From Metarhizium brunneum (lineage: Eukaryota; Ascomycota; Sordariomycetes; Hypocreales; Clavicipitaceae): a DNA stretch of 64,000 nt. Below are positions 62,176 to 64,000 of this stretch, piece after piece. Under the pieces are notes generated by a model that worked only from the letters and a program-made list of their open reading frames with translations, was not told where the DNA came from and did no database searches. A program made the position numbers and the translations under genes. The stretch is from positions 1,488,001-1,552,000 of the forward strand of contig NC_089426.1 of assembly GCF_013426205.1 (NCBI RefSeq), in the 5' to 3' direction. The stretch's first letter is position 1; each line of letters begins with the position of its first letter.

Positions 62176-63001
62176 TTACGCAGCTTGCTGCATGGTCTCT
62201 CTGATCGTCTTGGCGGTGCCGGCGAGATCGGTAATCTTGGCCTTGGGGTTCTTGCCGTGATAGTCGGCAATGGCAGCCTTGATGGCATCTTCTGCGAGCA
62301 TGGAGCAGTGAACTGAGAGAGGGTCAGATTTAAAAAAAAAAATTCACCAGACGTTTGATGCAGCTGCGCAGCTCTATGGAGGTACGTACGCTTAACGGGT
62401 GGCAGGCAGAGTTCCTTTGATATGTCGACATTACGGATCTTGGATGCATCCTCCACTGTATCATTGGCCGGTTAGCAATTTGCAGCTTGCGCCAATTTGA
62501 AATTTCGAGCGAGAGAGAAGTTCCTCGACTGGTGCATTGCAAAATTGGATATAACTCACATCGCATCCCCTTGACCAACTCGGTCAAATAACTCGAGCTT
62601 GCGATTGCGGAACCGCATCCAAACGTCTTGAATTTGGCATCAGTAATGGTTCCCGTGGCCTCGTCAACTCGAATCTGCAGCTTCATAACGTCGCCGCATG
62701 CTGGGGCGCCAACGAGTCCAGTGCCGACAGCGGGATCCTTCTTGTCCATGGAGCCTGGGTTCCGGGGTCGGCTGTAGTGGTCCAGCAGTAGAGCCGAGCA
62801 TGTTAGCTGAATGTACGCGAAAAGGGGCGAAAAAATGCGAAAGAAAGAAAAAGGTTATTGATGCGATGCTGCACTCAGGGATGACCACTTATCTTTATCG
62901 TGGTAGAATCGGCGCCCGGCCAGCTGAGGAGTTGCCGCTACCGCGGCGATGGGAGAGGGCATTGCCCGGATTGTACGGAAGGGCGCTCTTAATGAAAACA
63001 T
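62176..63001 (-). CDS. ISU1: Mitochondrial iron-sulfur cluster scaffold protein ISU1
   Basis: Exons 63001-62893, 62787-62560, 62455-62390 and 62312-62176 give 179 residues. Residues 1-32 are a basic mitochondrial presequence (MFSLRAPFRTIRAMPS... RRFYH). The scaffold follows: HDKVLDHYSRPRN, GTGLVGAPACGDVMKLQIRV (first cluster Cys), FKTFGCGSAIASSS (second), KGMRLEDA, and LPPVKLHCSMLAEDA, holding the LPPVK motif bound by the mitochondrial Hsp70 and the third Cys. On this scaffold Nfs1, frataxin and ferredoxin build 2Fe-2S clusters. Introns 2 and 3 are GT-AG. Intron 1 (62892-62788) must start ATAAGT and end CTCTAC to encode KVLDHYS. A GT-AG alternative (62888-62772) stays in frame but replaces VLDHYS with DN. 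The open frame continues upstream of the ATG to 63208, but that extension lacks conservation signals. Confidence 0.94.
62788..62892 (-). other. AT-AC intron 1 of ISU1 with U2-like donor
   Basis: 105 bp beginning ATAAGT and ending CTCTAC, with a GCTAAC branch-site match 16 nt before the end and a pyrimidine-rich middle. The splice joins GAT AAA G to TG CTG GAC, giving DKVLD. The donor is GTAAGT with its first G changed to A, not the U12-type ATATCC, so this looks like a U2-type AT-AC intron. Confidence 0.8.
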
Positions 63002-64000
63002 TTTGATTGCGATGTGTATGTGTGATGCGTCCGACTGCGATGAGCGATGGCGCAACAGGTGGGTTGTCGTGGTTGTGAGGTCGAGGTCGAAAATGTGAGG
63101 AAAAGAGATTAAATGGAGATTATGAAGGTGGCGACAGCGGACGGAGCAGAGGGATGCTGGGGGACTTGCTTGGCTGGCGCTTGTGTGTGGTAGAGCAGCA
63201 CTGAGCACTCAGCAAGATTGATAAAAAACGCCGAACATGTCCGGGCACCGGCGCTCGTCATACACCACGGGCCAATCAAGGCACAAGGAAAACTAAAAAG
63301 CCGACGCTGCGTAAAGCACAGGTCAAAAAATGGTTTGTGTCATACGGTAGATTCAGCACTGTGTGGCTACGGTGCAATCGCGGTGGCAGTACGGAGTACA
63401 CAGTATGGATATGACGAAGATTTGCGCACCAGGAAAGTGCTGGAGATTATCTGTCCGGGGGTGGGAAGGAGCCAACGGGCAGAACCAATAGCAAGGTCGA
63501 GTGTGAGGGCGAGGGTCCAGCAAGTATCTGGTAGGCAGTACGGAGTACGTAACGGAGGAAGGAGCGCCCTTCCTACACTTCGTATGTACGAACGAGTGTC
63601 CGATTCGGCCAAAACGACGGGCTGTCGATTTACCCCGCCCCACCAGGTCAAATGCTGGGCAGTTAGTTGACGGATCAGCAGTAGGCCACTGATGATACGT
63701 ACAGTGAAGAGTGAGGGGGGGTTGAGGCCTTGGAGCCTTGTGGCCGTTATTTGCACGCTCAACATGTGAGCCGTACGCAATGTACGGAGTAGGCTAGCTG
63801 GGTCGCGACGTGCACATGCTGCAAGACCTGAACGGTGTTGATCGGCTCCAAGTTCTCCGTACCACGGTTATCTGCGGGCCCACTCCGGTCACCGGCCTAC
63901 CCTTGACTTTGATTGGGAAAGGGTTTGCGGCTGGCTCCGAGCCATGGGTAATACGAGATGGCATAGCGGTTTTGTAATTGTCTTTGCAATTTATCTGTTG
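63002..64000. other. ISU1 upstream region
   Basis: About 1 kb with no supported gene. Three TACGGAGTA copies lie at 63389-63399, 63538-63548 and 63783-63791. Confidence 0.6.

Follow-up and report, generated by a model that had tools for sequence, protein, structure and literature searches.

The ISU1 locus and the ends of its first intron

The window (the whole 64-kb stretch of Metarhizium brunneum DNA analysed here) contains ISU1, a mitochondrial iron-sulfur scaffold gene on the minus strand that runs from an ATG at 63001 to a stop ending at 62176 (Table 1). ISU1 function is essential in yeast. A genome-wide NifU_N search of M. brunneum (37,771,916 bases, 7 contigs) returned this gene as its sole match, while Rfam and tRNA scans of the 64-kb window returned none. 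The window contains 17 copies of the 10-mer TACTCCGTAC, where 0.05 would be expected; three of them lie upstream of ISU1 (63389-63398, 63538-63547, and 63782-63791) and 14 elsewhere. The strain, ARSEF 4556, is an insect pathogen, and its assembly is a Nanopore and Illumina hybrid, according to the accessible portion of PMC7842015.

Table 1. Features of ISU1 in window coordinates.
Feature	Position	Strand	Basis
ISU1 exon 1 (leader and YHDK; ATG to AAAG)	62893..63001	-	sequence
AT-AC intron 1, 105 nt, phase 1	62788..62892	-	sole pair restoring YHDKVLDHYSRPRN
Intron 1 5' splice site ATAAGT (exon AAAG|)	62887..62892	-	complementary to own U1 over -3 to +6, with a mismatch at +1
Branch site CTAAC, branch A at 62803	62802..62806	-	15 nt ahead of last intron base
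Intron 1 3' splice site CTCTAC	62788..62793	-	sequence
In-frame TAA, reached on intron 1 retention	62855..62857	-	sequence
Rival in-frame GT-AG intron, gives YHDKDNRPRN	62772..62888	-	sequence, pair enumeration
ISU1 exon 2, first bases TG|CTG GAC CAC TAC	62560..62787	-	sequence
ISU1 intron 2, GTGAGT...CAG, ordinary GT-AG	62456..62559	-	sequence
ISU1 exon 3	62390..62455	-	sequence
ISU1 intron 3, GTACGT...CAG, ordinary GT-AG	62313..62389	-	sequence
ISU1 exon 4 through stop	62176..62312	-	sequence

Joining the first two exons across ATAAGT and CTCTAC (62892-62788) gives ...YHDK-V(G|TG)-LDHYSRPRN, with the valine codon split G|TG as the initial annotation had described, and a product of 179 aa with one stop, at its end. 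We enumerated 188 in-frame, stop-free splice pairs (22 GT-AG, 97 GC-AG, and 69 AT-AC; with donors at 63000-62791, acceptors as far as 62563, and an intron length of at most 400), and this pair was the only one to restore YHDKVLDHYSRPRN. A scan that accepted any end letters (donors 62905-62851 combined with acceptors 62800-62766) found no other pair yielding YHDKVLDHYSRPRN. The original claim that the conserved scaffold start is encoded without a gap only by an intron running from ATAAGT to CTCTAC therefore holds. So does its observation of a competing in-frame GT-AG intron (62888-62772), which gives a protein of 175 aa with DN in place of VLDHYS and thus loses six residues; a further in-frame GT-AG choice, 62885-62772, reads YHDKDKCRPRN.

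Protein-level comparisons separate the two products. The AT-AC protein scores 181.6 bits against NifU_N (cut-off 22) and the GT-AG protein (62888-62772) 162.9; against TIGR01999 (IscU) the former passes the cut-off of 192.4 with a score of 208, and the latter falls marginally below it at 192.1. The stretch restored by the AT-AC join aligns without gaps to yeast Isu1 and ISCU chains of solved structure, and VLD or VID precedes HY..PRN in 185 of 197 homologues (from a scan for HY..PRN with a preceding D, E, or N). All enumerated GT-AG and GC-AG alternatives for intron 1 were ruled out on protein conservation. The AT-AC observation is thus confirmed, and AT-AC is the best reading of the sequence.

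Splice signals and spliceosome class

Compared with the complement of the genome's U1 5' end, the intron 1 donor (AAAG|ATAAGTGG) agrees at 8/12 positions, and between -3 and +6 the first intron base is the sole mismatch, in keeping with its initial description as a U2-like donor one base away from GTAAGT. By the same measure introns 2 and 3 each score 7/12 and the rival GT donor 5/12. The U1 complement was taken from the two matches of a genome search, which share the 5' end ATACTTACCTTG and score 56.7 and 45.3 bits, both below the Rfam gathering cut-off of 69.5. These U1 snRNA matches are diverged (L003 1501-1652 on contig C1, 56.7 bits; L004 1501-1651 on contig C2, 45.3 bits). The branch A lies 15 nt from the last intron base in intron 1, 16 nt in intron 2, and 11 nt in intron 3; from the CTAAC branch A to the rival AG the distance is 31 nt.

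Intron 1 therefore has AT and AC ends, a donor that is of U1 type at all but +1 and is not ATATCCTT, and an ordinary U2 branch site, CTAAC, near its 3' end. Neither the U12 donor RTATCCTT nor the U12 branch site TCCTTRAC is present in the intron, the donor there being ATAAGTGG. Genome searches for U12, U6atac, U4atac, and PDCD7 gave no match with a method that had no positive-control match, and U6 was found above its cut-off. The initial annotation had proposed the search for U12 snRNA; U1 was recovered from the same genome as the two below-cut-off matches described above. Two surveys, in their accessible portions, describe no convincing case of a minor intron from Ascomycota (PMC10639083, PMC2846911). 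The ends, donor, and branch site of intron 1 support its classification as U2-type.

Four genome searches with patterns shaped on intron 1 showed no excess over reversed controls (7 vs 7, 14 vs 15, 14 vs 27, and 11 vs 26), whereas a canonical intron pattern gave 101 matches vs 26. The ISU1 intron is thus not one of many with exactly those motifs. In a rough coding test of 46 loci (50 rows), which used a weak coding model trained on 9 ORFs, ISU1 ranked second; the first-ranked locus, L124, belongs to a set of three near-identical copies spaced at a few hundred bases. Because the coding model is weak and the patterns require GCTAAC, the genome could contain other AT-AC introns.

ISU1 gene models in related fungi

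Protein searches, each represented by the best 120 of 8,000 scored and clustered at 90% identity, gave 242 different proteins. Our clade set comprises 28 rows: 26 NCBI-named models plus P0001 and P0029. The named models are from Metarhizium (3), Pochonia (1), Claviceps (9), Ophiocordyceps (5), Purpureocillium (3), Tolypocladium (2), Hirsutella (1), Drechmeria (1), and Cordyceps sp. RAO-2017. We take Metarhizium, Claviceps, Ophiocordyceps, and Tolypocladium to belong to the Clavicipitaceae/Ophiocordycipitaceae; for Pochonia, Purpureocillium, Drechmeria, and Hirsutella, the family was taken from a taxonomy look-up. Cordyceps sp. RAO-2017 is classed in Cordycipitaceae and its ISU1 groups with the Ophiocordycipitaceae rows; the other 25 are Clavicipitaceae/Ophiocordycipitaceae.

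Among the matches listed, junction 1 is intact in 4 of the 26 named models, junction 2 in 26/26, and junction 3 in 23/26 (Fisher p of 1e-10 and 2e-7 for junction 1 vs junctions 2 and 3, with models that are non-independent, nine being Claviceps); leaving out RAO-2017, junction 1 is intact in 3/25 of these matches. That gene finders lose conserved residues here, as had been anticipated, is therefore visible in the relatives' deposited models. The intact models (P0012, P0016, P0018, and P0019) come from Cordyceps sp. RAO-2017, Tolypocladium capitatum, Ophiocordyceps unilateralis, and O. camponoti-floridani, species that may lack the intron, have it with GT-AG ends, or have it correctly called. 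Named models P0013, P0023, P0038, P0192, and P0193 skip junction 1 or start past it.

Many of the broken models appear to read into the intron. YHDKD, which reads as exon 1 running on through G|AT or G|AC (D has two codons) into the intron, occurs in 17 of the 28 clade rows among the matches listed. In the deposited models, M. rileyi and Claviceps lovelessii read YHDKDN, and M. humberi and M. acridum read YHDKDKC. Read back from the protein models, the donors would be ATAAGT-like in Metarhizium, Pochonia, C. lovelessii, C. sorghi, and Hirsutella, ATGAGT-like in six Claviceps models (DES), and ATATGT-like in Purpureocillium lilacinum P0021, O. sinensis, and O. camponoti-saundersi (DI); in P. 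lavendulum (DM) the donor letters are ambiguous. This read-back takes D as GAT or GAC, leaves +5 as A/G after K and E, assumes GT at +5/+6 for the DN and DI models, and assumes the other ambiguous letters. The donors so obtained would correspond to GTAAGT, GTGAGT, and GTATGT changed at the first base only, and the models suggest an AT-AC intron at exactly the same spot in the relatives' ISU1.

One homologue supports the AT-AC join in a relative: P0001 (JGI, 1,166-nt contig, 96% identical) reads YHDKVIDHYS. As all three introns are absent from it, we infer that it represents a spliced transcript. A second row, P0029 (13 members), lacks introns 2 and 3 and starts at MDKKD, which may reflect retention of intron 1 or a cut 5' end. 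We did not accept P0029 as proof of retention, as short-contig proteins of other fungi (P0196 and P0197) share its start methionine. A viral-contig scan for relatives' genomic DNA gave at least 80 loci with IscU relatives, and pattern scans gave at least 118 stretches in one case and 17 and 72 in the others. Among all 338 loci collected in the analysis, only L001 and L008 match YH[DE]K, then GATRDGT, then DHY..PRN, and both are M. brunneum's own ISU1.

Outside the clade, the motif is present in 179 of 214 proteins among the matches listed; for proteins of at least 160 aa among these matches, 179/189 are intact and 10 are not. Some of the intact proteins are probably transcript-derived. As intact models outnumber broken ones, these fungi may lack the intron, carry it in GT-AG form, or have had it called correctly. 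YHEKD is found in 8 of the 10 broken models of at least 160 aa among the matches listed, in three classes: Lecanoromycetes (Alectoria fallacina), Eurotiomycetes (Blastomyces gilchristii, placed in the class by its genus, and B. percursus), and Dothideomycetes (Paraphaeosphaeria minitans, Verruconis gallopava, Venturia nashicola, Glonium stellatum, and Coniosporium apollinis). Many of the shorter models begin at the GSM methionine; such starts fit a failure at intron 1 and may also have other causes. Thirteen named ascomycete ISU1 models (P0198, P0200, P0202, P0203, P0205, P0207, P0211, P0212, P0219, P0227, P0237, P0238, and P0242) begin at about this methionine with nothing earlier, possibly through the same annotation failure.

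A tree of the ISU1 core domain (window 62176-62740 and homologues; midpoint root, with an unsettled bootstrap) places the Clavicipitaceae/Ophiocordycipitaceae with Xylogone, Grosmannia, and Thielaviopsis. Fusarium, Trichoderma, and Beauveria, which are other Hypocreales, are set apart by a long branch (support 100/98). This conflict with the species tree may reflect old paralogy or gene transfer.

Our best reading of these models is that the ISU1 AT-AC intron is likely old and often mis-annotated. We give even odds to a single AT-AC intron older than the divergence of Sordariomycetes, Dothideomycetes, Eurotiomycetes, and Lecanoromycetes, which the major spliceosome would have maintained as AT-AC throughout. 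It would be trapped in that state because its two ends can change only together, and it would have gone unrecognised because automatic gene models break on it. Several separate origins at this position are a more doubtful prospect: the mostly intact proteins outside the clade mean that the state may be patchy and the ISU1 tree departs from that of the species, but position and phase are identical and the donors drift at +3/+4 across four classes, as read from the models, for which one origin is the simplest account.

Proposed mechanism and comparison with known AT-AC introns

We propose that the major spliceosome removes intron 1 of ISU1 as an AT-AC intron of U2 type, that Clavicipitaceae and Ophiocordycipitaceae share it by inheritance, as probably does a wider range of Pezizomycotina, and that a valley between splice-site states keeps it AT-AC; we place the probability of this joint reading at about 0.9. 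U1 would pair with AAG|ATAAGT, mismatched at the first intron base alone, and U2 would pair with the CTAAC branch site; the terminal A and C would then take the place of the usual G and G during the second step. In the two families the intron would be common by descent. Its +3/+4 bases would drift (ATAAGT, ATGAGT, ATATGT) and its terminal AT would stay constant because a change at one end leaves a poor AT-AG or GT-AC intron, so that two changes would be needed to regain GT-AG. In a mutated yeast intron AT-AC was reportedly the most efficient combination after GT-AG (Parker and Siliciano 1993, as cited in the accessible part of PMC6726248), and U2-type AT-AC introns occur without U12 (the same part of PMC6726248, citing Wu and Krainer 1997). 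By analogy with yeast, AT-AC splicing by the major spliceosome is most likely in ISU1.

Other readings account for the locus less well. Splicing at 62888-62772 or 62885-62772, with a shorter and divergent N-terminal stretch in this lineage, would use canonical ends in a frame free of stops, and the deposited models of M. rileyi, C. lovelessii, M. humberi, and M. acridum match the equivalent joins. However, it would sacrifice VLDHYS in spite of the conservation of VLD/VID before HY..PRN, leave the 62888-62772 protein marginally short of the IscU cut-off, and depend, at 62888-62772, on a U1 match of 5/12 and on a branch A 31 nt from the AG, and the broken models vary between species, as expected of forced guesses; we regard it as very unlikely. 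A minor-spliceosome intron is extremely unlikely. AT-AC ends were first discovered in that class, as the accessible part of PMC10639083 recounts, but the donor ATAAGT and a CTAAC 15 nt from the end depart from RTATCCTT and TCCTTRAC, the minor-spliceosome components went unmatched (by the method without a positive-control match) in a genome where U6 and U1 were found, and the Ascomycota surveys cited above (PMC10639083, PMC2846911, in their accessible portions) point the same way. That AT and AC are sequencing errors in a GT-AG intron is barely credible: a hybrid assembly may contain errors (PMC7842015, accessible portion), but two independent ones would be required, at the first and the last base, and the same junction is broken in the relatives' models.

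An unlikely reading with more in its favour is that the intron acts as a regulatory switch, GT-AG use or retention giving a defective or stopped product that would tune ISU1 output. The in-frame GT-AG rival overlaps the AT-AC intron, retention meets a stop, P0029 lacks introns 2 and 3 yet starts at MDKKD, and in an Arabidopsis reporter a nested GT-AG intron competes with a U2-type AT-AC intron (PMC5473141, accessible text). Against this, the start methionine shared with P0196 and P0197 from other fungi means that P0029 need not be retention, and the folding of intron 1 is ordinary (z 0.68). Regulatory use in ISU1 is therefore possible, its basis within the gene being the overlapping rival sites.

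If the major-spliceosome AT-AC intron is held across families without a known minor spliceosome, ISU1 would provide a natural test of the interaction between the first and last intron bases and of the idea that compensatory pairs act as evolutionary traps. In practical terms, the conserved motif is missing at the same place in 22 of the 26 named clade ISU1 models among the matches listed, and shortened ISU1 models outside the clade may have the same cause as the clade's broken ones.

AT-AC introns of this kind are already known; what appears to be new is the sharing across families, possibly classes, and the trail of damaged models. Among the records listed by our searches of the open literature on fungal AT-AC introns, Metarhizium included, none names the ISU1 intron. 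Trichoderma longibrachiatum belongs to the same order as M. brunneum. Its RNA-seq junctions include 69 AT-AC of 14,305 (PMC4324775), and RNA-seq of human fungal pathogens gave 0.09-5.19% (PMC6176087), each in the accessible text. The initial statement that AT-AC introns are very rare in fungi thus agrees with annotations, in which few occur (PMC7072748, accessible part), whereas RNA-seq gives a higher share (PMC4324775). The T. longibrachiatum cases are TopHat junctions in genes that the accessible text leaves unnamed and for which it shows no conservation (PMC4324775).

The inferred U2-type AT-AC introns of C. elegans (PMC3033335) and the Arabidopsis GFP reporter (PMC5473141) share with the ISU1 intron, as interpreted here, AT and AC ends that the major spliceosome processes, and in that group such splicing extends to a genome believed to be without U12 components. 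ISU1 differs in that its intron is apparently common to several fungal families and lies in a single-copy gene, and no such case is described in the accessible portions of those papers. The yeast first- and last-base mutants (Parker and Siliciano 1993, via the accessible part of PMC6726248) are likewise AT-AC, but they were engineered, whereas the ISU1 intron is natural and apparently inherited. Yeast, an ascomycete that lacks U12, also splices the AT-AC protointron of SUT635, which, as described in the same part of PMC6726248, lies in a non-coding RNA and is used alongside GT-AG splicing; in ISU1, in contrast, the AT-AC join is needed for the conserved protein.
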